Assembly (NCBI GenBank): GCA_030710605.1
Contig: CP092863.1
Span: 57,006,507-57,070,506, forward strand
DNA: 64,000 nt
Origin: Cordylochernes scorpioides
Taxonomy: Eukaryota; Arthropoda; Arachnida; Pseudoscorpiones; Chernetidae
Reading direction: 5' to 3'
This document shows, one piece after another, positions 6,348-52,207 of this stretch. The translations under genes and the position numbers were made by a program. Numbering within the stretch: the first letter of the stretch is position 1; every line of letters starts with the position of its first letter. The notes beneath the pieces are model-generated. The model was given only the letters and a program-made list of their open reading frames with translations, did no database searches and was not told where the DNA came from.

Positions 6348-6703
6348 TGTTGGGAGCTTGTTTCCTCACAGCAATAGTTTGGTCTTCCGTGTAGCTCCTT
6401 CAGCTTTCTTTCTGGTCTCAGGTGTTGACGATTTGTGGCAGAGCTTAATTTGGACTGTATGTTACGACCAGACCTGCGTGATTGACTAACGAGATTGATG
6501 TTCCTTCGCAAGACTGAGATGTAGCACGTTGTATGACTAGAGGAAGTACGCCTCACACGATGTAGCTAACACACTAACTTTATTCAATCATCCACTCATT
6601 TTATATACATACATATTTACATAGTCAAAAGAAATAAAGAAGAATTTGCATGACTATGAATCAATGCAGCCTAGCTAGCGATTTGCATAGCTAGGCGCAA
6701 ACA
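6348..6703 (-). repeat. BEL/Pao 3' LTR
   Basis: 356 bp, identical by eye to 8931-9286. As the element is on the minus strand this is the 3' LTR. The inner edge abuts the polypurine tract; the outer edge abuts GTTGG. The last codons of the gag-protease frame run into it (stop at 6691). Confidence 0.95.
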
Positions 6704-8856: not shown

Positions 8857-8930
8857 GTTTTCAGTTTTGAAGGTTTCTTCTCAGTAGAACCACGCTCTTT
8901 TCCTTAATATCCGGTTCGATATGGACCATA

Positions 8931-9286
8931 TGTTGGGAGCTTGTTTCCTCACAGCAATAGTTTGGTCTTCCGTGTAGCTCCTTCAGCTTTCTTTCTGGTC
9001 TCAGGTGTTGACGATTTGTGGCAGAGCTTAATTTGGACTGTATGTTACGACCAGACCTGCGTGATTGACTAACGAGATTGATGTTCCTTCGCAAGACTGA
9101 GATGTAGCACGTTGTATGACTAGAGGAAGTACGCCTCACACGATGTAGCTAACACACTAACTTTATTCAATCATCCACTCATTTTATATACATACATATT
9201 TACATAGTCAAAAGAAATAAAGAAGAATTTGCATGACTATGAATCAATGCAGCCTAGCTAGCGATTTGCATAGCTAGGCGCAAACA
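8931..9286 (-). repeat. BEL/Pao 5' LTR
   Basis: 356 bp, the promoter-bearing LTR for this minus-strand element. It ends ...CCCAACA (minus strand), followed after 2 nt by the TGG of the primer-binding site. Outer flank is the GTTGG duplication at 9287-9291. Confidence 0.95.
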
Positions 9287-9957
9287 GTTGGTATAGATTC
9301 ACTCCAGGTAGGGTTATTGTGTGCTCTGATTGCCGCCTTTAATGATCGATGCAAACGCTCAACCTTCCCGTTAGCTTGGGGGTGGTATGCAGTGTGTGTT
9401 GTAATTTAATTCCACATATTTTTTTTAGATTAGCAAAGGTATCTGATGTGAACTGTGCTCCTCTATCAGTGACAAGTCGTAATGGAGTACCGTATCTTGT
9501 GATCCAATTATTATAGATTGCCCTCGCTACTGTATCAGCCGAGTTGTTTTCCAAGGGTATTGCTTCCATCCAGTTACTATAGCGGTCAATACATGTAAGA
9601 TAGTATATATAGTTATTAGATGGTGGTAGTGGTCCCACTAAATGGATATGAATATCATTAAATTTTTTGTTGACATTTGAAATGTTCCAAAACTTGTTTT
9701 TGTATGGCGATTGATTTTATTTCTTTGACACGCCCTACAATCTCGACTCCATTGTAGGACATCTTTCCTTATGCTAGGCCAAATGACCTTTGAGTCATTT
9801 GCTTAATTGTTGACCTTATCCCTGGGTGTGACAGTCCATGGATTTTATGAAACATTCGCATTCTGTGAGATTTTGGTAAGTAGGGTCTTATATTTGCGGT
9901 AGATGTGTCGCACCAAAGCTGGTTACCAGATGGAAGGATATATTGTTTAAACTTCAA
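9287..9957 (-). pseudogene. Gypsy element A: integrase zinc-binding and core part
   Basis: Upstream half of the Gypsy A integrase. At 9769-9957 lies the HHCC-type zinc-binding region (FHKIHGLSHPGIRSTIKQM). At 9339-9638 lies the catalytic core: D in YLTCIDRYSNWMEAIPL and D in RLVTDRGAQFTS. The 3' part of the core (SLKAAIRAHNN near 9330) runs into the BEL/Pao insertion. Frameshifts separate the blocks at about 9640-9770 and 9350-9400. No protease or RT of this element lies upstream; the sequence passes directly to the stop of Gypsy element B at 9968. Confidence 0.85.
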
Positions 9958-9967
9958 AGTTTTATTA

Positions 9968-11850
9968 TTAATTCGTTTCGTCCCGAAAAGGACGGACTTC
10001 CCCAGCGGCGCTGATCAGTGGCTCTTTGAAGGGGGCTAGTCTGTTGAAATGGACAACCTTTGGTTTAGACTGGGATGAGCGTTGTATCCTAAATACGAAA
10101 TCGTTTAACTTCTTCACAATTCGAAATGGGCCTTCCCAGGATTTTTGTAGCTTAGGCGAGAGACCTTTCTTCCTTTTCGGGTTGTACAACCAGACTATCG
10201 GTAGGCCATCAGAGGAATAAGCAGTTGACTGTCCCAGTCTCTTCGGTTCTGGGCGACGAAGAGACTGAGTTGACTTGCTAAGGTTCTATTAAATCTTTCG
10301 ACCATGCCATCGGACTGGGGGTGTAAGGGAGTGATCCTTGTTTTATTGCTTCCGAGAGGTTTACACATTTGGGCAAAAAGTCTCGACTCGAAATTTCTCC
10401 CTTGGTCAGTGTGGATCTGCAAGAAGACACCGAACCTACTGAAGAACTGGCTAATTAAGGTTTCAGCAACTATTTCAGCTTTTTGTTCAGCAAGTGGAAA
10501 TGCTTCCGGCCATTTGGTGAAATAATCCATTGCAACTAGGATATAGCGGTTCTCCTTGTCACGTCGCGACAATGGTCCCATGATGTCGATAGCGATCCTC
10601 TTGAACGGGGCTCCCACGTTGTAAGTATTGGGTTTGGCCTATTTCTGGAAGCTCATTCAGTACACTCTCGTACCCATTTTTCAACACTGGCACGGCATCC
10701 AGGCCAGTAAAAGCGTTATTTCACTTTTCCAAATGTATTTGCAATCCCAAAATGTCATCCGCTAGGGCTATTGTGCAGCTCTTTGAGGACGGGAGGTACT
10801 CGTGATTGGGGAAGGATCATCTTCCATTCAATGTATTGACCATCTTCACTCTCCCATTTCCGGTAGAGAACACCACCTCGAAGTTCGAGCGAGTCCCATA
10901 AGACCCAATAGCTCTTGGTGATTGGGCTGCAGGATGCAACATCTTCCCATGCTGGCCTGTTGGTCCCGGAATTTAGAAAATTCATGACGGACCGAAAATC
11001 AGCGTCTTCAAGCTGATATTTTCTCATTTCCACGGGACTCCATTCGTCTGACTTGAGTTCTTCTGCGAGGGCAAGTTGACGAATATTGATCTCAACTTGT
11101 GCCTCTGCCTTGGAACAATGCTTGCAGTTCACTATGCATGGTCGTCTCGAGAGAGCATCTGCGTTCCCGTGAGATTTCCCTTTCCGGTGCTGGATCTCCA
11201 TGCCATACTCTTGAAGTCGCTGAATCCATCTAGCTAGCTGTCCCTCTGGGTTCTTGACGTTTAACAGCCATCGTAGAGCTGTATGGTCTGTTCTAAGAAG
11301 ACACTTCTGCCCGTATAAATAATGGTGGAAATGCTCAATCGATTTGACGATTGCCCGCAACTCTCTACGGGTTACACAGTAGTTTCTCTCAGGTTTGGAC
11401 AGAGTCTTACTGAAGTAAGCTAAGACACGTTCTACTCCACCCTGGATTTGATATAGAACGGCTCCAATCCCCGTGTTGCTGCATCTGTGTCCAAGATGAA
11501 TTGCTCACTTGGATCAGGTAAGGCTTGCATCACCGTCCTTGCAGCACCGTCTCCCCAGACGCTCGAAGGTGGAAGGGGCGTTGAATAGCCCAAATGGCAT
11601 TACCTTGAACTGCAAAGCCCGTTTCCTGCCGTGAAGGCTGTATTTTCTCTGTCTTCTGGGTGAATGCTGACTTTTAGCCGCTTTTGAGATCCAAAGTGGA
11701 GAACCACTGCGATCCGGATAGAGTGTCGAGCGTAGCATCAATTCGGGGCAGAGGGTAGGAATCCTTTTTGATTAGATCATTTAGACGTCGATAATCCACA
11801 CAAAAACGTGTGGAGCCATCTTTTTTCTTTACAAGCACAACGTGTGTGCG
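9968..11850 (-). pseudogene. Gypsy element B: RT, RNase H and integrase remnant
   Basis: Minus-strand Ty3/Gypsy pol of a family different from element A. In order from 11850 downward: RT fingers ([19 protein letters not shown], then a STLDLKSG palm start), a rearranged RT stretch to ~11400, RNase H and tether (10755-11360; LLRTDHTALRWLL, GKSHGNADALSRR), integrase core (10195-10617; DIMGPLSRRDKENRYILVAMDYFTKWPEAFP, and the second D in HTDQGRNFES; E in GMVERFNRTL), and the integrase C-terminus (9968-10189; SWEGPFRIVKKLNDFVFRI), ending in TAA at 9968-9970. The RT palm with YxDD is missing and several frameshifts are present. The 5' side stops at about 11850; no LTR was found on either side. Confidence 0.9.
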
Positions 11851-18877: not shown

Positions 18878-21800
18878 TTAGTCCTCAGCAAAAGGTAATG
18901 GTACTATTTCAGAGACAGTTCTAGTAAGGTGTTCTTGGTGCTTGGTCTTCACCTCGACGACTCGAACTTTTCCGTCTGCTCCCGGAAAGACCTTGGTGAT
19001 GCGACCAAGGCTCCAATATATTGCTGGTGGTGATATGGTATCCTTGAGCAAGATGAGGTCACCTTCCTTAATGTTGGGTGAGGATTTTTGCCATTTTAGG
19101 CGTTGTTGCAAATTGTTGAGGTATTCTCGATTTCAACGTTTCCAAAATACATTTTTAATTTTTTGATTTAGGCTCCAGCGGTCGAGGTAGTTTATCCGAA
19201 CATCATCATCATTAGATTCTGGAAGGGCAGTTAAGGGTCTCCCGATTAAGAAGTGTCCTTGAGTAAGAGGATTAAAATCGTCTGAATCTGAACTTAGAGG
19301 ACAAATAGGTCGCGAATTTAAACAAGCTTCTATTTGAGTTGTCAGAGTACTCAGCTCTTCAAATGTGAGTATCTGAGACTTTAAGCATCTGAGAAGATGA
19401 AATTTGAAGGATTTTATTCCAGCCTCCCAGATACCTCCGAAATTTGGGGCGGAAGGAGGTATAAAATGCCAGTTGATTCGTTCATTAGATATGAATTTTT
19501 GAATTGTTGAAGCTTTCAATATATCAAACTGCTCTCGGAGATGTTGTTAGCTCCCCTAAAGTTGGTCCCGTTATCACTAAATATATCAGAAGGTTTTCCT
19601 CGACGAGAAATAAACCGCTTGAGAGCTGCGAGGAAAGCCGCTGAAGATAGGTCTGATACAATTTCTATATGAATTGCTTTTGTGCAGAAACATACAAATA
19701 AAGCAACATATGATTTTAATTTTACTTTGGATCTTTTTTGATGTTTGGTTTCATCAAAAACGGTCCTGCAAAGTCGATTCCAGTTTTAGTGAACGGATTT
19801 GATTTCACAATTCGGTGCATAGGCAGATCTCCCATGATTTGCTTGGTAACTTGGCGTTTAGCCCTGAAACACACCATGCATTGATGGATTATTTTCTTGA
19901 CCAAACTTCTGCCTGCAGGAATCCAATATCGTAATCCTAGTGCTGACATGGTCAGTTGAAGACCAGAATGTAAATGATCCAGATGACACTGTCGCACTAT
20001 TAATTCCGTGATAAAATGATCTCTTGGCAATATTATTGGATGCTTTTCATCAAATTGCAGATTTGAATGACGTAATCTTCCTCCAACCCGTAATAGTCCA
20101 GATTCATCAATGAAAGGATTCAAAGATAAAAGCCTTGAGTTAGTTGGTAAAGATTTCTTTTGTTTGCAACAGGTAATTTCTGATTGAAATTCATAACTTT
20201 GGATGAAACGAATGATATTGTGAATTGAACTTGTTAATTCGCTTGTGAAGATAGATGTCTTTTCTTACTTTCATTGTAAGAACATTGGACATTGAATACA
20301 AATCTATAAATCCATGCTGTAATTCTAACAAGTTCGTTGATATTTGAGTATTTGAAAATGAAGTCTGGGAAAAGAAGATTAGTGGAATGAAAAACAGAGA
20401 ATGTTTTTCGTCTTTCACCTGAAATTTCTTTCGGAAAATCATATTGAGTTTGATTTGGATCTTCAAAGTTCACATCCGAGAGCCAAGTTGGTCCTCGCCA
20501 CCAAAGAGAGTGATCCACCAGCTCTGAAGGAGTTATACCTCTGGAAGCGCAGTCTGCAGGATTATCTTTCGAAATGACATAATGCCAGGAAGAATGTAAA
20601 GTCAATCTTTGAACTTCAGCAATCCTATTTCCGACAAATGGTTTCCAATGTCTAGATTCAGATTTAATCCAGCTGAGAACAATTTTGGAATCAGTCCATA
20701 AAATATACTCTATCAATTTGTAAGCATAAAGAATTGCGAATAGTATCATATAAAGTTGCGAGAAGAAGAGCAGCGCACAGCTCCAGCCGTGGTATGGAAA
20801 TCATTTTCAGAGAAACTACCCTCGTCTTGGAAGCAATCAGAGAAACTCTCACTTGGCCCGATTTGAAATGATATCTTATATAGAATACTGCCGCATATGC
20901 AACTTCTGAAGAGTCACAAAAACCATGAAGTTCAACAGAAAGTAAAGCTCCCCTGCACGAGAATTATCTAGGAATTTGAATTTTATTTAATACGGATAAT
21001 TCCTTTTCAATTTTCTTCCATTGAGAGCTCAAAGTATCAGGCAAGGGATCATCCCAATTCAACTTCTGTTTCCAAAGTGATTGAAGCAAAATTTTAAGAC
21101 GAACAATAACTGGTGACAACCAGCCTATAGGATCAAAGATTCTGGAGATGTGGGACAACAAATGTCTTTTAGAATTCGTTTGTTCTGGAATGTCATTAAC
21201 AAGAATCTGAAAAATGTCCAAGGAAGGATTCCAACAAATACCAAGTATTTTGACACATGAATCACTCTCAAAATCCCAAAGATTATGCCTATCTTCAACC
21301 TGTTCTGATAATCCAGAAAATACCTCTGGAACGTTTGATCTCCATTTCCTAAGAGAAAATCCGGCTGAAGAAAGAAGATTATTGACTTCACGAATATGAC
21401 ATGTAGCTTATTCAATTGTGTCTGCACCAGAAAGCAAGTCATCAACATAAAAATCGGTTTGTATTATTTTTGAGGCCACTGGGAAAGTTGACACCTTGTC
21501 CCTTACAAGTTGATGTAGGGTACGCATGGCGAGATATGGCGCACAAGACAATCCATATGTCACAGTCAGCAGTCTATAATCCAATAAAGGTTCTGATGGG
21601 TTTTTTCTCCATAATATTCTCTGGTAATCACAATCCCTAGAATCGATTCTTACTTGGCGATACATTTTCTCTATATCTCCTGAAAAAGCTATTGGGCGTG
21701 TTCGAAATCTTATCAGAATGTTGAAGATATCCTGTTGTAGTTTTGGTCCTACACGAAGAAAGTCATTTAGAGATTTGCCATTGCTAGTTTTGCAAGATGC

Positions 21801-23977
21801 ATCAAAAACAACTCTCAATTTAGTGGTATTGCTTTGCTCCTTAAAAACACAATGATGAGGTATATAATAACATTGTCCTGAAGGTGTATCCATCTCATCA
21901 CTGGGAATAAGCTCCATATGATTGATTAAAAGATATTCGTCCATGAAATCACAATATTGTTTTAGGATACTTGGAGAATTTTGTAATTTTCTTTCAAGTG
22001 ATAGAAATCGATTCAGAGCATTGATCCTAGATTCGCCAAAAGTTGGCAATGTTCTAAATGGCAGCCCAACAGAGTATCTTCCATCTTCCAGAATTTTGAG
22101 GATATTAATATATATTTATTCACACGAAATTTCTTCTCTGGTTAAAGATTTGGCAGAGGGAACTGACTCCAGCTCCCAGAATATTTTTAGAAAATCATCT
22201 TGTTATTCCGACGCGAACATAGTTATACTTGATTGGAATTTTCACCTGACAGTAATATTTTACCTGTAAGTAACCATCCCAATTTGGATCCGCACGCAGT
22301 GGGTCCAGATAAATTTTGGAATCTAACCTTCCCGTTAAATAAGCATGGAGCAAGTTCTGCTCCTATCACTAAATCAATCTGGCTAGATTTGTCAAAATTG
22401 GGGTCAGCCAGCAGAAGATTTTTCAAATAAGGCCAATTATCCTTTTCTATAAAGAAATTGGGCAATTCTGATGTGCTCTTATCAATGACTATAGGATTGG
22501 CGTTGAATATTAGGTTTGAGAGAAATGTGGGCTAAATTGGAGAGAGACCTCACCCATTGATTGTTCTACAAGTTTGTTTCCCAAACCAAAAACTGTAGTT
22601 TTACATTCAGCAAGAGGAAGATTTAATTTCTTTCGACAACTATTTGTTATAAGACACCTTTGAGAGCCTGTATCTATGAGGGCTCTACATGTTTGAAGAA
22701 CCCCGTTTTCCGATTTGACCTTTATTAAAGCCGTAGAGAGTAATATCCGATCATGACTTTTGTTGTCTGCAAAACATGAGACACTGGCATGGGTCAATAG
22801 AGATATGTCCGCAACAGGACTTAACATTTCCGGTTTGAACTGATGCAAAAGAGTATGATGTCTCTTATTACATGATTTGCAATTTTGCGTGAGGAGGCAT
22901 GACGATACTCTATGGTTAGATCTTAGACAGTTGTAACATAGACGATTATCTTTTACAAATGTCCATCTTTCAGGTAACATCATACCATTAAACTTAGGAC
23001 ATTTTAACAAAAAATGTTCACCTTTACATAAGACGCATGACTTAACTCTGCTATCTATACTAGAGCCAGAGGCAAATGTTGCTGAATGAGTGGATTTATT
23101 CATTTTGTAGAATTGTTTTGAATTTTCTTTATTCTGAAAACTCCCGAGACTTCCAGCAAATCTTTCCAGGAAAGAAATCATCTTTTCATACGATGGATAT
23201 TCTTTCTCAAGCAAACTCATCTCCCATTCCTTTCTTATTTAGCGATCAAGTTTTGATTGAATTATATATGAATTAAAATCATATCTGATAAATTATTACG
23301 TTCCAATCCGAGGATAGAGAGATTCTGAATGCTTTCGTTACAAGTTTCCAGGAGATCAAGTGAATCTTTAGTCGATTCTTGTTTTACATTTTTTAGATCA
23401 TACAAATTTTGAATTTGTTTAAAAGCCAATTCACTTTTTTTGTCGAATCTATTGACCAAGGTTTGCCAGGCAATAGGATAATTTTCATCAGAAATATTGA
23501 ACGCCCTAATAAGTCTAGCGGCATTTCCTTTTAGTGCAGAATTTAAATATTGAAGTTTTTGAAAATTTCCCAGTGTTGGATTTTGATCAATAGATCTAAT
23601 AAAAATTTCCTTAAAACTCAGCCAATCTGAAATATCACCACTAAAGGTGGGCAATTGAAATTTGGGAAGTTCTAAATTGGTTTCACCAGAAAATGTATTT
23701 TTATTTAAATTTCCTAGCGATCTATTTATTTTTATCAAAAAATAATTGATTTTAGACTTTGCCTCAAAGGATACCTTAAATTTTCTTCAGCATTAATGCC
23801 TTTATATTTTACTAATTTCACATATTGATTATCAAAGCTAGCTTTTAAATTTAACAAGTCTTCTTTATTTTGCATAAGTGCGTATTTATCATTGCCTTTT
23901 AAATTATATTCTACATCTGCTTTTATCAATTCTAAACTTTTAATCAGAGATTCAAAAATTAAGATTTCTGTTTCCAT
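18878..23977 (-). pseudogene. BEL/Pao gag-pol polyprotein, frameshifted
   Basis: Order on the minus strand: gag head from ATG 23977; DUF1759-type gag (23262-23738; LPKFQLPTFSGDISDWLSFK); zinc knuckles (CVLCKGEHFLLKC, CYNCLRSNHRVSSC, CKSCNKRHH) and aspartic protease ALIDTGSQRCLI (22510-23220); pre-RT linker (22223-22465); RT with intact YVDD at 21438-21449 (21408-22049); RT end and RNase H region (20234-21448; LWTDSKIVLSWIKS, a D box of RNase H); integrase zinc region and core (19722-20123 and 19133-19519; TGIDFAGPF, PPSAPNFGGIWEAGIKS with the catalytic E); DUF5641-type C-terminus to 18878 (EGDLILLKD). At least eight frame breaks or stops separate these blocks, so no full protein can be made. 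Confidence 0.93.
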
Positions 23978-24386: not shown

Positions 24387-27109
24387 CTTGTTGTCCACTA
24401 GCAAATTTGTGTCCTCAAATGATGTAAAGTCCTTATTTATTCCCTTCAGATGAACTAGGTCTTGTATAGAAGCAGCAGCTGCTACATATTCTGCTTCTGC
24501 GGTCGAAAGAGGAACACAACCCTGTTTCTTAGAAAACCAAGACACTGCACTTGATCCATGTAGTACTATGTTTCCACTTGTACTTTTTCTGTCAATTCTA
24601 TCTCTGGGCTAGTCAGAGTCTGAATATGAAATCAAATTGTTGGATGATTCTTCCATTTGATATCCTTTTGCTACTAAGCGAGCCTTTTTGGTTCCATCCT
24701 CTTTGGTTCTGAAAATCCATTTTGTATCAATTGGTTTGATATTTGATTTTTTTTCCTTATTTTATTGAAGACCATGTTTTCAATTCTTCATGAGATCGAA
24801 TTTATTTATCAATAGCTTCTTTCCATTCTTTTTGCCTAATTGCTTGATTGTAAGAAAGTGGATCTTCACCATTTGTAAACAAGCAAAATACTGAATATAG
24901 TTCATAATCTTCTTGATACTTTGGTGGTTTGATTATTCGACCCGATCTTGTAGTTACACTTTCTTCTTTGTCTGATTGTTTCGATTTTTGTGAGGGTTCT
25001 TTCTCATCTTGATATTCAGTTATTATTCTTTTAGGTTCTGTTTGATCCGAGATGATTTTCTTATCAAATTTAGTTAATGTTTCATCAAATGTTACATCTG
25101 TTGAGATTATTACTTTATTAGTTTCCGGATTCCAGATGCGATATCCGCTTCCACTGTATCCAACAATGATTGTTGATTTTGCTCTAGCATCTAGTTTTCT
25201 TGGTTTGGGTAGAATTAGTCTCCAAGCTCTTGAGCCAAAAATCTTAAGTTTGGAAAGGTCAATCCGTTTATACCATAGGCTAGCCGAAGGTATTCCTCTG
25301 TTCGCACATGTTGTACTTCTGTTTAATTCGTATACTGAGCAGTAAATGGCTTCTCCCCAGAGATATTTTGGTAGATTTGTTTCTGCCAACTTTGTTCTCA
25401 TTTTATCAATCAATGTTCGGTTCATTATTTCAGAAGTGCCATTTTGTTGTGGCGTGTGAGGTGGGGTATATTCTATTTGAATACCTTTTATTCTGCAAAA
25501 CTGCTTTAAGTTTCAAGATGAAAATTCCTTACCATTATCTACTCTAATTTTTCTTGTTTTCTTGTTGTGTTGAGTTTTTATCAACTTGATAAAATCAATT
25601 ATTTTTTTGTTCGGCTTCACTTTTTGATTTGAGAAGTCTCACTACTACAAAGTGTGAGTAGTCATCTATTAGTACCTGAAAATATATTTCTCCATCAAAT
25701 GTTGGTGGATCAATTGGTCCTGATAAGTCTGAATGTATCATTTCTCCAATTTCCTTAGTTGTTTTCCAGGTTTTCTCAAATGATCTTCTTGTAAGGAAAA
25801 ACTTTGATACAGGTTTCACATTTCTCTTGTGAACTTGGTAGCCCTAATTTCTTTAAGCTGTATCTATTCAGATGTCCCAATCTTCTGTGCCACAATATGT
25901 CATCCGTTTTGACTGTATGCGCTGTAACACTTTCATGGTTACTGTCTAGTTCTATTTTAAGTGAGTACAAGTTTCTATAATTATTACACTCAAATTCATG
26001 GTTTCTTGTAATTATTTTTACTTCCAATTGTTTAAATATCACTTGGTGACCCTGTTGTATAATTTATCCTACTGACAACAAGTTCTGTTTAATGCCATCA
26101 ACTATTAATCCATGGATTGCTATTAGGATATTATTGATCTTTACATTTAAAGTTCCACTTTTATTAGCTGACATCTTTTAACCATTATCAATATGAATAT
26201 CAACCTTAGTTTCTAAAATCTTCACATCTGTCATATATTTTTCTAATTCCCCTTTCGATCAGGTTCTGTATTGCTCCTAAGTCTAAAATAAAATGATCAT
26301 TTTCATAGCAATCTATAGCATTCATTGCTACAAATGATAGTTTGCCATCCATCTGATAGGCTTCTTGTCTAGGTTGTCTCTCTCTTTGTCTTTCATTTCT
26401 TTCTTTTTTTGTTTGATTCTTTTCTCTTTTGAAAAATTTATTTTTACTTATACATTCTGTAGCCTTGTGACCTTTCTTGCCACAATTATAACATGTAAAT
26501 GTGAATGATCCAAATATCATTTCTTCATTCCTAGGTTCCCCTTGTTCATTTTTCTTTTTGAGTTCTTCATCCAGCAATCTTGCCTTAATAAATTTCATTG
26601 TTATTTCAGTATTTATTGTTTCTATTGCTGTGATTACATTTTCAAACTCTTCATTCAATGACAATAACAGATGACTTATTTTGTCAGATTCATCCATTTT
26701 GGAACCTATATTATCCAATTCACGAATTATAGAATCAAATTTAAGAAATTGGTCCTCTAATTATCCATTATGTTTGCATTTTAAAGTCAACACATTATTG
26801 TTAGTGTTAACTTTGTAAACACAATTTTTCTTTCAAATATATTTTCGAGCGCTTTCATCATTTCTTTAGCTTTTTTGCATCTTATATTATGTCTAGATGT
26901 TTATCAGTTAAACATTGAACAAGCGTAGATTTTGCCTTTGCATCCTTCATTGCAAATAACTCGCGTTCTTTTTCCATCGACAAAATCATTAATTTCGTTT
27001 TATAATGTTAGATGTATTTGTTTTTCTTCTAACAATATTTTAGCTCTAAATTTCCAGCTGTTGAAATTTGAACCAGTCAAAATGGCAAATTAGAATTATT
27101 TACGCTCAT
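24387..27109 (-). pseudogene. Copia gag-pol remnant with RT deleted
   Basis: Ty1/Copia polyprotein on the minus strand from ATG 27109. Gag starts MSVNNSNLPF with SWKFRAKILLEEK in a shifted frame; 26206-26718 has the gag helix region and one CCHC knuckle (CYNCGKKGHKATEC). Protease has FILDLGAIQNL where DSGA is usual. The GAG-pre-integrase region (25776-26042; ILWHRRLGHLNRYSL, CETC) and integrase (25595-25819; HSDLSGPI, VLIDDYSHF; then 24802-25425; LPKYLWGEAI, FGSRAW) follow. RT begins (WKEAIDK; WIFRTKEDGTKKARLVAKGY near 24680-24740) and jumps at about 24655 to RNase H (STSGN, FSKKQGCVPLSTAEAEYVAA), so the RT palm and YxDD are gone. RNase H is then cut at NKSA by the BEL/Pao insertion. The 5' LTR is missing. 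Confidence 0.9.

Positions 27110-32998: not shown

Positions 32999-33031
<33 letters not shown>
32999..33031. repeat. (TA)n microsatellite
   Basis: Uninterrupted TA tract of about 33 bp, some 130 bp outside the left arm of the Penelope composite. Confidence 0.95.
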
Positions 33032-33034
<3 letters not shown>

Positions 33035-33159
33035 TAGAAACTATATAACAAAATTATAACAGTGATTCTAATTTTAAAAAATTTAAGGAGCAAACTGATA
33101 ATAATGATAACTTATATCAGTTAGATTTGATTAGATTAGCAAGCTAAATCTAAATTAAT

Positions 33160-34738
33160 TATAATAATAAATAGTTATTTAATTTTATAGTCCAGTTTTG
33201 TATTAAAATTATCTTCACTATTATGATCATTTAAATACAAATTATAAAATTTGTAAAATGTTATTAATTTGTAGATAGAGAGAGAAAAAAAAAAAAAATC
33301 CATTACTTCTTTTACATCCTCAAGTTAATTATATATTTATAATTAATAACAATAAAAAAATTAACAAAGTAACGTCTATTACATCGGCTTTTACACGTCA
33401 TTCAGACATACTCTAATCCTATATATAGAATAATCGAAGAGATAATATATATAATAGTTAGAAAAAAGAGAGAAAGACAGAACCATGCACTTTTAATCAA
33501 ACTAATAATAAGGGAAAAAAAAAGAGTTTTATAAAGAAGGTAGATAAAATTGTTAGTATATATATATATATTTTTTTATGATTTTATGTTTTATCCTTTT
33601 TTTTTTTTTTTTAAAGATTTTTAAAGGTTTTTTTATTTTATAATATGATTATAAATAGTTGTATTTAGTAATATATCTATAGTATGAATTAACATTTGTT
33701 ATAAGTTTGGATATTATGTTTTGAAACCCTAATGGTAGACCAGACATACACAAAAAACTTTAAATTGAAATAAATTGGAAAAAGAGATCTGCTGAAACGG
33801 GGATCATCAGATAAAATTTCAGCGACATTTCAACCCCTCCTTTATTATGTCATAGATCTCTTTTAAACCGTATTTTATGTGTTAATATTAAGTTGTTTCA
33901 GTGAAATATTTAAATGAACATATAACAGATACCAGTGTTAACAAATTCAAACTGTAAACCTACCTTGACTGCTGCGTCCTCCATTGTGTATATCTATTTC
34001 TGGCTTGCACATGTCGCGGGAGGGGAATGTCCCCCCACATTTCAAATTTAGACCATTTCTTCAGAATTTTTTTGAACAACAAGAAAATTAAAGAAGATAG
34101 GAAAAATAGTTAAAGGAAGAAAGCTAAGTTTTATAATCTTTACAGATAGTTATATCAAAATAACTGATTTAACACTTAATCATCTTTTAATATTCCTTTA
34201 AAAAGGCAAATTATAAGAGTTTAATAAAGCTATTAATTGTGCAAGTTCATCTTTATTTAACTTCCATTTTCCTCCCCAGAAATTGGAGATTAAACAAAAA
34301 TGAAATATATATTTTAAAACTTTAAAAATCTTGTGAAAAAATTTTTTAATCAGTTATTTAATAAAAGTTTAATTAACTGTTAAAGATTATAAATTTGTTT
34401 TAGTTAATATTAAGAGAAATTATAGAAAGTTGATTTCATAAATGGATATTTCCATTTATTTTTTTTTAAATATTTTATAATTGATATACTGTTGAAATAT
34501 TTTACTTGTTTGATACTAAATTTGTTTTTAATAAATTCCATGTTTAAATTTTTAACATCTTCTATGAAATTATCTAATATATTATTTATTCTATAAAATC
34601 TTAGAAACTGACCATAATATATACCTTTACAGCAATTTAATGATATATTAGAATTCATATTACAGTATTTTATAATATTGAAATTATAATTACTCTTTTT
34701 ATTATAAACTCTAACAGCACTATTTGTAAGGTCTATAT
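33160..34738 (-). repeat. Penelope composite, left inverted arm
   Basis: Holds about 110 C-terminal codons of the reverse transcriptase and 1.25 kb of 3' UTR. It pairs with 36801-38375. A GC-richer block in the UTR (about 33960-34045) contains, on the minus strand, an ATG and a splice-donor-like GTAGGT (see the right arm). Confidence 0.93.
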
Positions 34739-36791
34739 TCAAGTCTAAAAAGTTAACTTTTTTGTTTCTATAAATTTTTTCATTGTTCTTAAGTTTCAAG
34801 TATTTAGGATATATTTCAGGTATTAATTTTTTAAACAGTGGATTATTAAATATTATTATGTCATCTACATATCGGAATATTTGCCAATTAATATTATTTT
34901 GTAGAAAGTATTCTCTTTCGTACCAGAACAATATTAAATTTGCTAGTAACGGACTAGAAGAAGTACCCATGGGAACGCCTTCTGATTGAATATATATTTT
35001 ATTTTTAAATTCTATATAGTTAAAATTTAAAAATGTTTCCAGTAGAGTTTTTGCTGTTTTAAGATCTAATTTAAATGTTTTATATTTGTTATGAATAATT
35101 TTAATGTAGAAAGTTTTGTCATTAATTAATTCATTAAATAAATTGGTTATTTTATTATTTAGATCTCTTAAATTTATTTTAGAATATAGGTCCTCAAAGT
35201 CAAATGTGTGTACTGTTTCAATATTTGTCCAATTGTTCATTAAATAATTAATGATTTTTTTATTTGAGTCGATAAATTTATAATTATATTTATTAGTTAA
35301 TTTATTTATAATAAATTGTAGTGTTGAGGCTAATTGTATATCAATATTTTTTATGACTGAATTTATACCAGATGTGATTGTTCTGAAAGAAATAGGTTTT
35401 TTGTGTAGTTTAGGAATTATATAGAACTTTGGTATGTTTGGATTTTTGTGGTTATTATAAATTTTTAGTGAATTTTCAACATTTTTGATGTCTTTTTTGA
35501 TTTTTGTGCCTGTAGTTCTAGCAAAAGTGTATTTATGATTATTATCAATTTCCTTTTTTAGTATATCGTGGTATAGATTTTTACAAATTAAAGATAAATT
35601 ATTGGGACATTTATCTATAGGAGTGATAATATAGTCCTTCTGTAATTTAATTATATTTTCTTTGAAAGAAGGAATGTCTGAATTGGGTTTTGTGTATTTA
35701 AGTGTATTATTATAATAATTTAAAATTTCCTTTTTAATATTATGTTTCCATTCCAGAAAAGTAAATTCTGGAATACTGTATTTTATACTAGTTTTATTTA
35801 TGAAAATATCTATATCTTTTAATATAGATTTAATTGTATTATTATAATTGTGTTTAATTTGAGGTATATATTTATACCCTTTATTTAAAATTTCTTGATA
35901 TTCTGGATTTAAAAAAGAAAAGTTGCTAGTTAATATATGACCTGAGTACTTATATTTATCAATATAGTTGTTGCAATTACATTTAATTTTTTTAAAATTT
36001 GCCAAATTATTAATAAATTGGTTATAATTGCAAACTAAATTACCTATATTTTTATTGTATCTCCAGATTGTTTTAAAATTTAAATTTTTTATAGGGAAAA
36101 GATTATTGATGATTTGGTTATTAAAAATATCATTAAATTTAATATGATTAAATAAATTGTTATTAAATTTAATGATAATATTAATGTTATTAGTATTTTG
36201 TTTAATTTTTCTGTATTTAAAGATGTCGTGTGTGATATCTATTAATCTGTTAGTCAGATTATGAATTTTAATATATTCTATGAGTTTGATAAATTTATTA
36301 TTATTTAGTTTAAATAATGTTTTAATAAATTTATCGACGAAGTTGTTAGTGTACATTTGTTTTGGGTCCAGTAATTCTTCAAATTCAATGTAACCTAATT
36401 TATTTGTAGTTTTACCTCTAGTTTTATTAGGTTTAGTTTTAAATTCATTTTTATATTTGCAACTGATTTCATAAGTTGAAATTTCTTCTGTTTGTGGTTT
36501 GTATGTGTAGTTTAATTCGTCGTTAAGTCCATAAGGGAATAATGTGTTGTGTTTATAAATGTAGTTGTTTTCTAATAATAGTCGTTGTTTTTTGTTTTGA
36601 CATATGTCTAGTATTTCTATCTTAAAGTTGTTAAAAGTATGTAATTGATTGTGTTCTTTCATATATATATTACCAATTGATTTTTTAGCGTGGTTTCTAT
36701 GTAGGTTTATTCGTATATTTAATGGGTTACAAGTTTGTCCTATATATGATAGTTGACAAATTTGGCATGTTAATTTATAAATAGTATTCAC
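34410..36791 (-). CDS. Penelope-like GIY-YIG endonuclease plus reverse transcriptase
   Basis: Uninterrupted frame of 793 codons. Residues 3-78 form a GIY-YIG nuclease at the N-terminus: TIY...YIG (3-18), R27, and E74 with N76 in LLENNYI. Cysteine pairs at 9/12 and CNCNN further on recall the extra cysteines of permuted Penelope elements. Residues ~390-690 are the reverse transcriptase: IITPIDKCPNNLSLI, FYIIPKLHKKPISFRTITSG, TFDFEDLYSKI (first catalytic D), GVPMGTSSSPLLANLI, and YVDD at residues 641-644 (34860-34871). Most Penelope elements have GIY-YIG at the C-terminus; the N-terminal position is reported for the Naiad/Chlamys clades. The first codon is GTG, a TAA lies two codons upstream, and the first ATG is codon 44, inside the nuclease. 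So the true start is probably lost at the junction or supplied by splicing. Confidence 0.9.
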   Translation of the reverse strand: MNTIYKLTCQICQLSYIGQTCNPLNIRINLHRNHAKKSIGNIYMKEHNQLHTFNNFKIEILDICQNKKQRLLLENNYIYKHNTLFPYGLNDELNYTYKPQTEEISTYEISCKYKNEFKTKPNKTRGKTTNKLGYIEFEELLDPKQMYTNNFVDKFIKTLFKLNNNKFIKLIEYIKIHNLTNRLIDITHDIFKYRKIKQNTNNINIIIKFNNNLFNHIKFNDIFNNQIINNLFPIKNLNFKTIWRYNKNIGNLVCNYNQFINNLANFKKIKCNCNNYIDKYKYSGHILTSNFSFLNPEYQEILNKGYKYIPQIKHNYNNTIKSILKDIDIFINKTSIKYSIPEFTFLEWKHNIKKEILNYYNNTLKYTKPNSDIPSFKENIIKLQKDYIITPIDKCPNNLSLICKNLYHDILKKEIDNNHKYTFARTTGTKIKKDIKNVENSLKIYNNHKNPNIPKFYIIPKLHKKPISFRTITSGINSVIKNIDIQLASTLQFIINKLTNKYNYKFIDSNKKIINYLMNNWTNIETVHTFDFEDLYSKINLRDLNNKITNLFNELINDKTFYIKIIHNKYKTFKLDLKTAKTLLETFLNFNYIEFKNKIYIQSEGVPMGTSSSPLLANLILFWYEREYFLQNNINWQIFRYVDDIIIFNNPLFKKLIPEIYPKYLKLKNNEKIYRNKKVNFLDLNIDLTNSAVRVYNKKSNYNFNIIKYCNMNSNISLNCCKGIYYGQFLRFYRINNILDNFIEDVKNLNMEFIKNKFSIKQVKYFNSISIIKYLKKNKWKYPFMKSTFYNFS

Positions 36792-36800
36792 TAATTATAT

Positions 36801-37128
36801 TATAGACCTTACAAATAGTGCTGTTAGAGTTTATAATAAAAAGAGTAATTATAATTTCAATATTATAAAATACTGTAATATGAATTCTAATATATCATTA
36901 AATTGCTGTAAAGGTATATATTATGGTCAGTTTCTAAGATTTTATAGAATAAATAATATATTAGATAATTTCATAGAAGATGTTAAAAATTTAAACATGG
37001 AATTTATTAAAAACAAATTTAGTATCAAACAAGTAAAATATTTCAACAGTATATCAATTATAAAATATTTAAAAAAAAATAAATGGAAATATCCATTTAT
37101 GAAATCAACTTTCTATAATTTCTCTTAA
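36801..37128 (+). pseudogene. Penelope RT, C-terminal fragment
   Basis: Open to the stop at 37126-37128 and identical in sequence to the last ~110 residues of the minus-strand protein (NSNISLNCCKGIYYGQFLRF and onward). It lacks the catalytic core. A methionine at 36880 is internal. Confidence 0.9.
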
Positions 37129-38368
37129 TATTAACTAAAACAAATTTATAATCTTTAACAGTTAATTAAACTTTTATTAAATAACTGATTAAAAAATTTT
37201 TTCACAAGATTTTTAAAGTTTTAAAATATATATTTCATTTTTGTTTAATCTCCAATTTCTGGGGAGGAAAATGGAAGTTAAATAAAGATGAACTTGCACA
37301 ATTAATAGCTTTATTAAACTCTTATAATTTGCCTTTTTAAAGGAATATTAAAAGATGATTAAGTGTTAAATCAGTTATTTTGATATAACTATCTGTAAAG
37401 ATTATAAAACTTAGCTTTCTTCCTTTAACTATTTTTCCTATCTTCTTTAATTTTCTTGTTGTTCAAAAAAATTCTGAAGAAATGGTCTAAATTTGAAATG
37501 TGGGGGGACATTCCCCTCCCGCGACATGTGCAAGCCAGAAATAGATATACACAATGGAGGACGCAGCAGTCAAGGTAGGTTTACAGTTTGAATTTGTTAA
37601 CACTGGTATCTGTTATATGTTCATTTAAATATTTCACTGAAACAACTTAATATTAACACATAAAATACGGTTTAAAAGAGATCTATGACATAATAAAGGA
37701 GGGGTTGAAATGTCGCTGAAATTTTATCTGATGATCCCCGTTTCAGCAGATCTCTTTTTCCAATTTATTTCAATTTAAAGTTTTTTGTGTATGTCTGGTC
37801 TACCATTAGGGTTTCAAAACATAATATCCAAACTTATAACAAATGTTAATTCATACTATAGATATATTACTAAATACAACTATTTATAATCATATTATAA
37901 AATAAAAAAACCTTTAAAAATCTTTAAAAAAAAAAAAAAGGATAAAACATAAAATCATAAAAAAATATATATATATATACTAACAATTTTATCTACCTTC
38001 TTTATAAAACTCTTTTTTTTTCCCTTATTATTAGTTTGATTAAAAGTGCATGGTTCTGTCTTTCTCTCTTTTTTCTAACTATTATATATATTATCTCTTC
38101 GATTATTCTATATATAGGATTAGAGTATGTCTGAATGACGTGTAAAAGCCGATGTAATAGACGTTACTTTGTTAATTTTTTTATTGTTATTAATTATAAA
38201 TATATAATTAACTTGAGGATGTAAAAGAAGTAATGGATTTTTTTTTTTTTCTCTCTCTATCTACAAATTAATAACATTTTACAAATTTTATAATTTGTAT
38301 TTAAATGATCATAATAGTGAAGATAATTTTAATACAAAACTGGACTATAAAATTAAATAACTATTTAT

Positions 38369-38375
<7 letters not shown>
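36801..38375 (+). repeat. Penelope composite, right inverted arm
   Basis: Inverted, 5'-truncated second copy. It starts mid-RT at TATAGACC (shared with 34731-34738) and runs through the stop at 37126-37128 and the 3' UTR to a (TA)n tract. In the sense direction the UTR contains ATG at 37554-37556 followed by six codons and then GTAGGT at 37575. This has the form of a short coding exon with a splice donor, and would make sense if the pseudo-LTR supplies the 5' end of a downstream tandem copy. Confidence 0.92.

Positions 38376-38430
<55 letters not shown>
38372..38430. repeat. (TA)n microsatellite
   Basis: TA tract abutting the outer end of the right Penelope arm. Confidence 0.95.
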
Positions 38431-43591: not shown

Positions 43592-44854
43592 CAGGGTCTA
43601 TTATGAAAGTAATGAGCATTTACTAGCAAAATACATTTATATTGATCGTAATTTGTGTGAATGTTCAATTTTCTTCAAAATACATTCCTCCTGTATCAAT
43701 ACACTTGCGGAGACGCGTTTGCCACGCCTGAAAGGCACCCTGAAACTCCTCGACAGGAATGCTTCTCAAGAACGTTGTAACATGGTGTTGGATGTTTTCC
43801 ACGGTTTCCCAATGCTTTCCTTTCATCTCTCTCTTGAGTCGCGGAAACAAAAAGAAGTCACATGGAGCTAAGTCGGGACTGTAAGGGGGGTGAGGGATCA
43901 GCGGGGTGTTGCTCCGGACCAGGAAGTTGGTAATGATAAAGGCTGTGTGACTGGTGGCATTGTCATGGTGGAGCTTGACCGTGTCTTTAATGTCAGTCCT
44001 CACGCGTGCGATCCGGCGTTTCAATCTCCTGAGCACCTCCAGGTAAAAGGCTGAGTTTACAGTTTGTCCCTGCGGTACAAACTCACAACGGACTATTCCT
44101 CAGATGTCAAAGAAGACAATGATCATCGTTTTGATGCGCGACTTGCTCATTCGCGCTTTCTTGGGGCGTGGGGATGATTTTGTGTGCCATGCACAGTTCT
44201 GCCTTTTCGACTCTGGGTCGTATTCAAACATCCAGGATTCGTCTCCGGTTACTACAGAGTTCAGAAAGCCTGGTTCATTTTGAATCAAATCCAACAATTC
44301 TTGACAGCGCAAAACTCTAAGTTCTTTCTGGTCTTGCGTCAACACTTTCGGCACAAGCTTCGCACAGACCTTACGCATTTGCAGATCCTCGGTCACTATC
44401 CTATTTACCACAAATGTGGACATGTGTAATGTGTCAGCAATTTGCTGGATGCTTAATCGACGGTCGGTACGCAAAACTTCGAGCACACGATCCACGTTCT
44501 CGTCAGTTCTGGCCGTTGTTGGGCGTCCTGAACGGGGTTCGTCGGCGACCTCCTCCCGGCCCTCCTTGAACGCCTTGTGCCACTTCCCAGACTGTGATCT
44601 TGAAATGCAATCGTCCTTGAAGGCTTATTGCAGCATCTGGAATGTTTCGGTTGCATTTTTCCAAGCCTCACGCAAAACTTTATGGCGTATCGTTGTTCAA
44701 GCGAACGCTCCATCGCGCTATGCTCGAACTCAACTGACGACCGGATGGATTGAAAGGGCATATCCCTCCACCACATTTCCCACGGTTTTACCGTGCTGCC
44801 ATCTATCGTCGCGTCACAATAACATTATGCTCATTACTTTTATAATGGACCCTG
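43592..44854 (-). mobile_element. mariner transposon
   Basis: Terminal inverted repeats of about 28 bp at 43592-43619 and 44827-44854 (CAGGGTCTATTATGAAAGTA against CAGGGTCCATTATAAAAGTA) flanked by TA on both sides. A single minus-strand transposase fills the interior. The whole element is much GC-richer than its flanks, so it arrived relatively recently. Confidence 0.94.
43665..44713 (-). pseudogene. mariner transposase (DD34D), one stop and one frameshift
   Basis: About 345 codons from ATG 44713 (MERSLEQRYAIKFCVRLGK). A frameshift shortly after this moves the helix-turn-helix region to another frame (RSGRPTTARTDENVDRVLEV, SIQQIADTLHMSTFVVNRIV). The triad is present: D in VVTGDESWMFEYDPESK, D in LHHDNATSHTAF, D in SPDLAPCDFFLF, with 34 residues between the last two as in true mariners. 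A TGA just below 44104 interrupts the frame once (FFDI, then stop, then GIVRCEF); reading resumes in the same frame to the end at 43665. C-terminus reads TRLRKCIDTGGMYFEEN. Non-functional as read, but nearly complete. Confidence 0.92.
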
Positions 44855-45131
44855 TATATATTATCTAAAAATGCTTATTTTAGATCATATAATCTTTATT
44901 TTCTAATATTTCGTATGACAGCTCGCCAAATTTCTTCGGAGAACAAGATTATTTTGAGATGCTCGCGTATCAATTCACGTGCATTTACAACTGCTGTAAA
45001 ATTTAAAATATCTAAAACCTACAATATGAATGTTTTTAAATAAAAAATAATAATAATATAAAAATATATGAAGAATTATTAAATATATACATTTAAAATC
45101 TAAGAATTGAAAATCAGTAATTTGTTATATA

Positions 45132-45558
45132 CAGGGTGATCCAAAAGTCCCGCACAACTTTAAAAATTAATAACTCCGCGAATATTTGCGCTAGATCAAT
45201 GCGGTAAACACTATTGTGTTCAGGATGCAATGGGATTTTTTATGGCAAATAATGAAAAATTCGAAATTGATTTTAGTTACAAGTTTATTCGCTAGATGGC
45301 GCTCTACCAGAATCAGCGATTCAGCGGCCAAATTGTTTGATAAATTGCAAAATATAACTGAACGACAAGTATTTTTCCTTTTTGAATACCAGGAAAGAAC
45401 CCTAATAATATCAAATGATAAATTAGTAAAACACCATTTCGCCAAAAGTTAGAAGAAATGGTTAACGATTTTTAAATACAATCTGAGATATGTAAAATAG
45501 GTATATGCAAATTAAAACATGTAGCAAAAAAAAAAAACCTGATATTCTAGATGAGGTT
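45132..45558 (+). repeat. left long terminal inverted repeat
   Basis: Inverse complement of 50712-51140. The two small frames here (45191-45452) recur in the other arm only because of the repeat and show no domain. Confidence 0.9.
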
Positions 45559-50711: not shown

Positions 50712-51140
50712 TAAAACCCCATCTAAAATATATATATTTTTTGCTATACATGTTTTAATTTGCATTTACCTATTTTACATATCTCAGATTGTATTTAAAA
50801 ATCGTTAACCATTTCTTCTAACTTTTGGCGGAATGGTGTTTTATTAATTTATCATTTGATATCATTAGGGTTCTTTCCTGGTATTCAAAAAGGAAAAATA
50901 CGTGTTGTTCAGTTATATTTTTCAATTTATCAAACAATTTGGCCGCTGAATCGCTGATTCTGTTAGAGCGCCATCTCTAGCGAATTAAGTTGTAACTAAA
51001 ATCAATTTCGAATTTTTCATTATTTGCCATAAAATATCCCATTGCATCCTGAACCCAATGGTGTTTACCGCATTGCTCTAGCGCAAATATTCGCGGAGTT
51101 ATTAATTTTTAAAGTTGTGCGGGACTTTTGGATCACCCTG
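50712..51140 (+). repeat. right long terminal inverted repeat
   Basis: Pairs with 45132-45558. The outer edge TATA joins directly to dispersed repeat copy B. Confidence 0.9.
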
Positions 51141-51148
51141 TATATATA

Positions 51149-51815
51149 TGTCGAATCCTGTCGACTCAATGTCGAATGCGGGGGTGGTGTCGACTCACTG
51201 TGGGATTGCTGTGGACTCACTGTCGAATCCTATATAATTTTGTGGTTGGGTGGATATGATTGGATTGGTGATGGGTGGCGGAGTCTTGGTTGAATGGTAA
51301 AAAGGTATTCCACAGGGTAAGAACGAACACACCTGGATGGGTTGAAAAAAGACCTTGCGAGGGAGAAGAATGAGATTTGACGTATGGCCTTTCACATGAT
51401 GGAGCGTACACTACCTTGGTTGGAGTCTATGTTGAGCACACCTAGCTCGTAGCACGGTCACCTACCTTCTCTTTATCTCTTGTCCGAGATTATCGTCATT
51501 AACTCTCTCGACTTCTCATTGGTGGAGATCTTTCCACGTGCTCTCTGATGATTCGCTATCAATTTGTCATGCTTAGAGGTGATTGGCTCAGTACCTCCAT
51601 TGTCGCCATGATTGCAATCCTCCAGGAAGAAGAAGGCCTTTGAACTTAAGTTTTATGGGTCCAGGGCAGTGACCTTTACTTCCTGGATGATGCAATACTG
51701 TACTTTGTTTTTTTCCCATCTCGCGAGGCCTAACTTTTATTAAACCTTTAGACGATACATTATACATAGTTTGTGGTGGGGTTACATAATCCTATATACC
51801 GATTATCACACATAT
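51149..51815 (+). repeat. dispersed repeat, copy B
   Basis: Same orientation as 917-1815. The minisatellite head is reduced to about four TGTCGAATCC/TGTCGACTCA units. The remaining body keeps TGTGGTTGGGTGGATATGAT, TTTCACATGATGGAGCG and CTCCAGGAAGAAGAAGGCC. The minus-strand frames over 51195-51411 mirror those at copy A and reflect the shared sequence, not a demonstrated gene. Confidence 0.85.
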
Positions 51816-51820
51816 ATATA

Positions 51821-52207
51821 GATGGAAATTTTGCCAGGAGGAAATTGATCTAAAGAGACAAGGGTCGCCTCTCCCGTCAAAATAGACGTCTAAAACCAGA
51901 CGCCATCTATTGACCGTCGCCGCAAATAGCGGCCTCGGGTCGGTGACAAAGCCACAACACCAGCTTTGGCAAACTGAAAAGCGTCCACCTAGAGACCATG
52001 GTTTCGGGCTAATGGCCCTCGTCAGTCTAGGGCAGACTTTATTTCATGAGATCCACACGGAATCTATTAGAATCTTGACAATTTGCCGAAGAGGTGTTTA
52101 GCTGGCAAAGTGGCTGGGCCATATCTATGGCTAAAATATAGATGGAAATTTTGTCGGGAAGAAATTTATCTAAAGAGACAAGGAACGCCTCTCCCGTCAA
52201 AATTATT
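51821..52207 (-). mobile_element. retrozyme-like repeat: 320-bp monomer plus partial second copy
   Basis: The 67 bp at 51821-51887 (GATGGAAATTTTGCCAGGAG start, CTCTCCCGTCAAAAT end) recur at 52141-52207 with about nine differences, giving a period of 320 bp. One complete type I hammerhead ribozyme lies in the unit on the minus strand (51988-52031). Small (about 170-400 nt) hammerhead-bearing units in tandem or partial-tandem form are the defining structure of metazoan retrozymes, which produce circular RNAs and are thought to borrow a retroelement's reverse transcriptase. There is no coding capacity. Copies at 42.0, 56.5 and 61.65 kb are degenerate. Confidence 0.75.
51988..52031 (-). ncRNA. 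type I hammerhead ribozyme
   Basis: Read on the minus strand: stem I CCTAGA (52031-52026) pairs perfectly with TCTAGG (51993-51988). The core box CTGACGA (52025-52019) fits CTGANGA. Stem II is GGGC with GCCC (52018-52015 and 52009-52006), loop CATTA. The GAAA box is 52005-52002. Stem III is CC with GG (52001-52000 and 51997-51996), extended by the A-T pair between the last A of GAAA and T51995, with a 2-nt loop. C51994 is the cleavage nucleotide. Every invariant position is present. The very short stem III matches hammerheads of retrozymes and Penelope elements, which often cleave best as dimers. Activity is predicted, not shown. Confidence 0.87.

Follow-up and report, generated by a model that had tools for sequence, protein, structure and literature searches.

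The 64,000-nt stretch of the Cordylochernes scorpioides genome analyzed here, called the window throughout, contains one member of a large family of short repeats that carry a type I hammerhead motif. We consider the family to be probably a non-autonomous animal retrozyme, with a Penelope-type enzyme copying a hammerhead-made circle into both ends of an AT-rich cut. Support taken directly from the sequences comprises the motif, its copy number, fixed paired ends, TA-rich targets, flank matches and near-identical units in some arrays.

The hammerhead motif and its family

A preliminary description of the window had placed a hammerhead on the minus strand (Table 1), and this motif was borne out as the single match of a strict descriptor in the 64 kb. 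It has a stem I of 6 bp adjoining the core, a stem II of 4 bp, the core letters CTGACGA and GAAA, and a helix III made of an A-U and a C-G pair with a CAUG loop. The descriptor script scores a third C-G pair in helix III, and such a pair would leave a 2-nt loop. This short helix III contains the self-complementary stretch ACCAUGGU, and the cleavage position is presumably the one given by the hammerhead consensus. In 1500 dinucleotide shuffles of the window, the descriptor matched 109 times at any quality and 17 times with an equal or better score. The motif alone thus has a chance of ~1% per 64 kb, and it is the genome copy count that carries the case for a hammerhead.

Table 1 Features of the retrozyme copy and of the Penelope-like neighbour in the window
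Feature	Position	Strand	Remarks
Penelope-like element, head to head in (TA)n	~33031-38376		GIY-YIG before reverse transcriptase
Left-arm ORF of the Penelope-like element	34410-36791	-	
Retrozyme insertion	51816..52203	-	388 nt, 1.21 units, one-armed
Ends of the window copy (RNA sense)	3' = 51816; 5' = 52203		3' end at q1; 5' end at q68 of the second round
68-nt direct repeat, first copy	51816..51883	.	
68-nt direct repeat, second copy	52136..52203	.	91% identity to the first copy
Tail, q1-q32	51816..51847	-	Most two-armed copies have it at only one of their outer ends
Second start site, ~q33-q37	51848..51852	-	In other copies, the arm without a tail has its outer end here
Type I hammerhead ribozyme motif	51988..52031	-	Strict descriptor; stem I is the open stem
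Expected cleavage site	51993..51994	-	After C at 51994

Across the genome (2.62 Gb in 24 contigs), the exact 32-nt core, with 27 fixed letters, occurs in 10,074 copies (5,015 + 5,059), while its reversed control occurs in 0 copies genome-wide. A search with the unit gave at least 80 matches, with the best 40 of 5,277 candidates scored. The unit measures 319-320 bp, many copies are tandem, and their arms are 0.1 to 11.8 units long. The description of the element as retrozyme-like is upheld by these thousands of units with a type I hammerhead, many of them tandemly arranged, and the genome search proposed at that time for further copies with the 320-bp period does retrieve such copies. The proposed covariance-model check went the other way. 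Rfam gave nothing at gathering score for the window stretch and no match in 701 bases at E up to 10; in an 81-base stretch, the best scores were 12.5 bits for RF03152 (gathering score 56.3) and 11.4 bits for RF00008 (gathering score 48.5).

Folding gave a mixed picture of the motif. The minimum-energy fold of a 61-nt stretch (-20.7 kcal/mol, equally low in 9 of 200 shuffles) forms stems I and II, lacks helix III and pairs the core GAC with the cleavage-site GUC. Folded as a circle, the consensus monomer reached -122 kcal/mol versus -87 (s.d. 5.6) for 100 mononucleotide shuffles, again with stems I and II kept and helix III absent. The longest stop-free stretch of the circular consensus, 117 codons on the sense strand, extends over more than one turn. 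No reading frame is kept, because unit spacing varies between 319 and 320, and the unit appears non-coding, with nothing evident encoded.

Fifty-eight loci were mapped, consisting of the window copy, 37 loci picked by similarity to it and 20 ordered loci, the first separate loci of the genome-wide list, which lie on contig 1 and all have the exact core; L017 was left out (covered by L029). In aligned units, one divergent unit being excluded from these conservation counts, the 13 core letters vary by 1.40% compared with 3.23% unit-wide, a level reached or undercut by 11 of 319 slid masks. The whole 44-nt motif is unexceptional (2.5% versus 3.4%; 64 of 277 same-length windows as low). Pair 4-41 of stem I was A-U in 49 of 72 units, G-C in 20, A-C in 2 and U-U in 1. 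The compensated A-U to G-C change was seen at four loci (L009, L021, L023 and L029), and the G-C form across them may go back to one event. The ordered loci supply 21 exact cores, some in motifs interrupted by an arm junction; depending on the position in stem I, 16 to 21 of these 21 form a standard pair. Because each of the 20 ordered loci has an exact core, their core letters do not count as evidence for conservation. Taken as sequence constraint, these patterns would argue modestly for a ribozyme.

Anatomy and target sites of the copies

The 58 loci resolved into 70 elements, of which 45 have two arms and 25 a single arm. In the two-armed layout, units head toward the centre and then reverse orientation, and each outer end is a 3' end in RNA sense. 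The two arms are unequal in length, the centres vary, the outer ends are offset by ~32 nt, and many copies have short overlaps or gaps at the junction of the arms. With positions along the unit written as q, outer ends were classed as near q1 (-6 to 9) or near q33 (28 to 50). Thirty-eight of the 45 two-armed copies were mixed, with one end of each class, three had both ends near q1, 0 had both near q33 and four were unclear. Without the duplicate L042, 37 of 40 clear two-armed copies were mixed, compared with 49.7% expected under independence (P = 8e-9). The ordered loci alone gave 12 mixed copies among 13 two-armed ones, the remaining one being unclear. The three two-armed copies with two tailed ends speak against the insertion cycle proposed below. 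One-armed copies mostly had a position-1 end (18 of 25), three had a position-33 end (including L055) and four were unclear. In a second subfamily the sequence around the outer ends differs, yet the ends fall at about the same place.

Several loci depart from the common layout. L055 is one-armed by script, and looks two-armed and mixed by eye. At L061 (873-917), the outer end of one arm lies at q178, adjoining the expected cleavage site; this single case looks as if copying had begun from the 3' end of cleaved RNA. L009 (4264-4662) has two tailed ends within flanking DNA that is itself palindromic, either an inverted target duplication or an assembly artefact. One two-armed insertion is present twice on contig 3, ~75 kb apart and with identical flanks (L039 and L042), evidently by segmental duplication after insertion.

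The window copy runs from q1 through one full turn of the unit and stops at q68 of round two. The preliminary description had reported diverged 67-bp repeats recurring exactly one 320-bp period apart in a partial-dimer layout. The 320-bp spacing and the divergence hold, and the repeat is real, but it covers 68 nt at 91% identity and does not recur exactly. The layout is better explained as a read-round overlap than as a terminal repeat, because stop points differ among other copies. Variable second-round ends led us to reject the 67-bp repeats as LTRs. The two-armed layout of other copies, the tail and the TA-rich targets go beyond the preliminary description. No target duplication was found at the flanks of this copy. 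Two further repeats lie near it, a dispersed direct repeat (1154-1692 and 51220-51716, ~50 kb apart, 86-93% identity in pieces) that ends just before the insertion and an inverted pair (45126-45533 and 50737-51146, with arms of 240 and 171 nt at 95-96%) that adjoins the copy.

Target sites were assessed on 68 elements, L042 having been dropped as a duplicate of L039. Flanks were 79% AT versus 64% in the background, and (TA)4 lay within 20 nt of 34 of the 68 elements compared with 2.3% of random flank positions. Matches between left and right flanks of at least 7 letters, not purely A/T, occurred at 14 of 68 elements, compared with a mean of 3.55 and a maximum of 11 in 200 shuffles of a mismatched-flank control. 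They span 7-14 bp, for example TTCCTATCTCTA (L026) and AGAGGTAACTTTGC (L060); exact lengths are often blurred because many targets are TA repeats. Part of the 14 may be due to chance, and as a group the matches resemble the kind left by target duplications.

Template and priming

In the proposed cycle, tandem copies would be transcribed, the hammerhead would cut the transcript into 320-nt units, and a host ligase would close these into circles. A Penelope-like enzyme, combining a reverse transcriptase and a GIY-YIG nuclease, would then cut both strands of AT-rich DNA. Copying of the circle would be primed from each cut end, starting at q1 from one, with the tail kept, and near q33 from the other. 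Enzymes may circle the template several times, and the two cDNA arms would be joined head to head at a variable position. Cleavage, ligation, the circular template and the Penelope-type enzyme are steps that we infer. Against the cycle weigh the sub-threshold Rfam scores, the missing helix III in both predicted folds, the single arm of the window copy and the failure to find a target duplication there, the heterogeneity of several arrays and the failure to find a donor element with sequence in common. Penelope-type machinery acting on circular RNA is suggested because Penelope-like elements bear the same insertion marks. More tentatively, each two-armed insertion could involve two enzyme molecules, one per target end, that copy the same hammerhead-made circle from starts at q1 and ~q33.

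Seventy-three full units were aligned to compare divergence within and between loci. Between loci, the median was 5.6% (2,502 pairs) and the 5th percentile 1.25%. Units within an arm differed by 0.07% in L029 (13 units), 0.17% in L010, 0.6% in L016 and L021 and 0.7% in L009, and units of opposite arms by 0 in L023, 0.31% in L010 and L016, 0.34% in L029 and 1.2% in L009, where both figures pool units from two neighbouring elements. Other arms were heterogeneous, with 4-5% in L012, L014 and L038, 6.7% in L041 and 8.5% in L015; in L014, ten changes are common to two of three units. The values for L040 (18%), L024 (6.3% between arms) and L035 (12% between arms) compare units from different neighbouring elements. 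Among the between-unit variants of L012, L014, L015, L038 and L041, 8 of 109 recur in at least three other loci, which fits decay of once-identical units after insertion. Because units are near-identical on both arms of several insertions, the simplest template would be one circle for each insertion.

Leaving aside the L055 chain, which matches poorly, seven of the 20 ordered loci have among them eight arms of at least 331 nt, and these pass the cleavage site. Arms longer than one unit exclude a linear cleaved monomer as their template. They agree with a reading in which the same element and a Penelope-type enzyme use a long, uncut multimeric array transcript and the ribozyme plays a minor part, as do the heterogeneous arrays and the finding that ribozyme mutants of the Anolis Penelope-like element PAc were without effect on insertion in vitro (PMC11167929). 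We consider such a template unlikely given the near-identity of units in L029 and L010 compared with divergence between loci and the few variants that recur elsewhere; near-identical units might also come from a source array that was itself homogeneous, or from gene conversion at a later time. The second arm might instead arise by self-priming or template switching rather than at a second target end, as proposed for Adineta Penelope, where self-priming on an antisense template was favoured for head-to-head copies (PMC3846280). The overlaps and gaps at arm junctions would suit this route. By this route the second arm should end outward at variable places, but in 38 of 45 copies that end is fixed at ~q33 against the target, and with the Anolis enzyme, extension of both target strands was seen in vitro (PMC11167929). 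The fixed end therefore favours priming from both target ends, and we regard self-priming as more doubtful still than the uncut template.

Inverted arms, 8-14 bp duplications and tandem arrays are also seen in foldback or MITE-like elements and satellites, and ~1% of shuffled windows hold one strict descriptor match. It is nevertheless very improbable that the family is a foldback/MITE-like DNA transposon or a satellite array with an accidental hammerhead-like sequence, in view of the unequal arms, variable centres, ~32-nt offset of outer ends and one-armed copies, a core less variable than the unit, and the compensated stem I change at four loci. The circle-copying cycle does not account for one feature of the arms, the clustering of inner ends at q61-q99 and q136-q180. 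Copy run-off at the 5' end of cleaved RNA was rejected, as the cleavage site (q178-q180) accounts for just 3 of 112 inner ends and many arms pass it. A pile-up of inner or 5' ends at q91-q96 (L014, L015, L024, L031, L032, L034, L035, L037, L038, L040, L059 and others) is possibly a favoured stop or a microhomology site.

Penelope-like elements and known retrozymes

The Penelope-like element of the window has a right arm that is an inverted, shorter copy. Its unit has a GC content of 21%, and its outer ends differ by ~130 nt, compared with 32 in the retrozyme. At least 41 genomic matches to its end, from the best 40 of 819 candidates, have 99-100% identity, some copies are tandem at 4,285-4,290 bp, and the element looks young. 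Pfam found nothing in its ORF even at E 10; the element was identified by homologs (at least 11 proteins at E <= 0.001 among 7,999 scored candidates), by the domains recognized in three of four homologs scanned and by an alignment. Elements with this permuted domain order are known as the Naiad/Chlamys clade. No hammerhead was found in its unit (including Rfam at E up to 5), its sequence sharing with the retrozyme unit was not above the shuffled level, and no donor element with sequence common to the retrozyme unit was found. The neighbour shows that such machinery is present and recent in the genome; as a partner of the retrozyme it is at most a candidate. Other transposon pieces lie at 2431-3462, 6691-11360, 19133-23738, 24802-26718 and 43665-44495; among them, Pfam recognized a Tc1-type transposase, DUF1759 (BEL/Pao-type) with an aspartyl protease, and a retroviral SH3-like domain, while their remaining ORFs were named by eye from translations.

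Metazoan non-LTR retrozymes, as described in PMC7229834, have repeat units of ~150-450 bp in dimers to multimers. The present family resembles them in its type I hammerhead (by descriptor, not by Rfam score), few-hundred-bp non-coding unit without a long ORF, tandem arrangement, thousands of copies and apparent duplications of >4 bp (14 of 68 elements), and its helix III, two pairs capped by a tetraloop, matches invertebrate motifs of that account. The GC content of the consensus unit, 49.7%, falls at the upper edge of the <50% in the results text and above the <45% in the Figure 1 legend of the same paper. Its main text does not use the word ‘inverted’, and double arms, pairing of tailed with tail-less ends and TA-rich targets were not encountered in the portions of it considered here. 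Plant LTR retrozymes have type III hammerheads, LTRs of ~350 bp, 4-bp duplications, a PBS and a PPT (PMC7229834, PMC7761336). The present family shares with them a hammerhead in a small non-coding retroelement, for which circular RNA has likewise been proposed in plants (PMC7229834, PMC7761336), but differs in its type I motif and in a direct repeat that would be a read-round overlap with variable ends.

The closest parallels to the insertion pattern come from Penelope-like elements. In vitro, the protein of the Anolis element PAc cuts AT-rich DNA and extends both strands, between which the start sites showed no difference; two adjacent start sites lie inside the RNA, and the stretch between them forms a 30-40 bp tail that some of the genomic copies carry (PMC11167929). 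In that study, reads neither started nor stopped at the cleavage site (PMC11167929); this, the lack of a strand difference in start sites and the neutral ribozyme mutants count against the cycle proposed for the retrozyme. Adineta Penelope copies have an inverted pLTR (pseudo-LTR) and duplications of 8-10 bp, and one inverted end optionally carries a tail of 31 bp (PMC3846280). Like these systems (PMC11167929, PMC3846280), the retrozyme has two starts ~30-40 nt apart and a tail at one of its inverted ends, as seen in 38 of 45 two-armed copies. With Penelope-like elements generally it shares AT-rich targets, apparent duplications of about 8-10 bp, copies in tandem and in inverted orientation, and the RNA order of hammerhead, second start site, tail and first start site. 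Priming of both target strands, a Penelope-like feature (PMC11167929), is the likeness that we propose for the retrozyme. Its 320-bp unit differs from autonomous Penelope-like elements in having no ORF for reverse transcriptase and GIY-YIG, and its motif has a helix III, whereas Penelope motifs have been described as being without one (PMC7761336).

Penelope-like partners have been proposed for animal retrozymes because the two share type I motifs and a tandem habit and occur together (PMC7229834, PMC7761336), and until now the enzyme that spreads these elements has been argued on those grounds; here, the copies themselves bear insertion marks of Penelope type in numbers. We found no report of such end structures in retrozymes in the open-licence literature, and a Penelope-type insertion signature has apparently not been described for them before. 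The pairing of tailed and tail-less ends provides a testable rule for Penelope-type priming from both DNA ends, and the end mapping is transferable to published coral, mussel and axolotl retrozymes. If the two-enzyme reading is true, every two-armed copy would record an asymmetric two-enzyme reaction. If the wider proposal is true, Penelope-type machinery would move animal retrozymes, and presence of the tail would mark at which of the two target ends priming took place.
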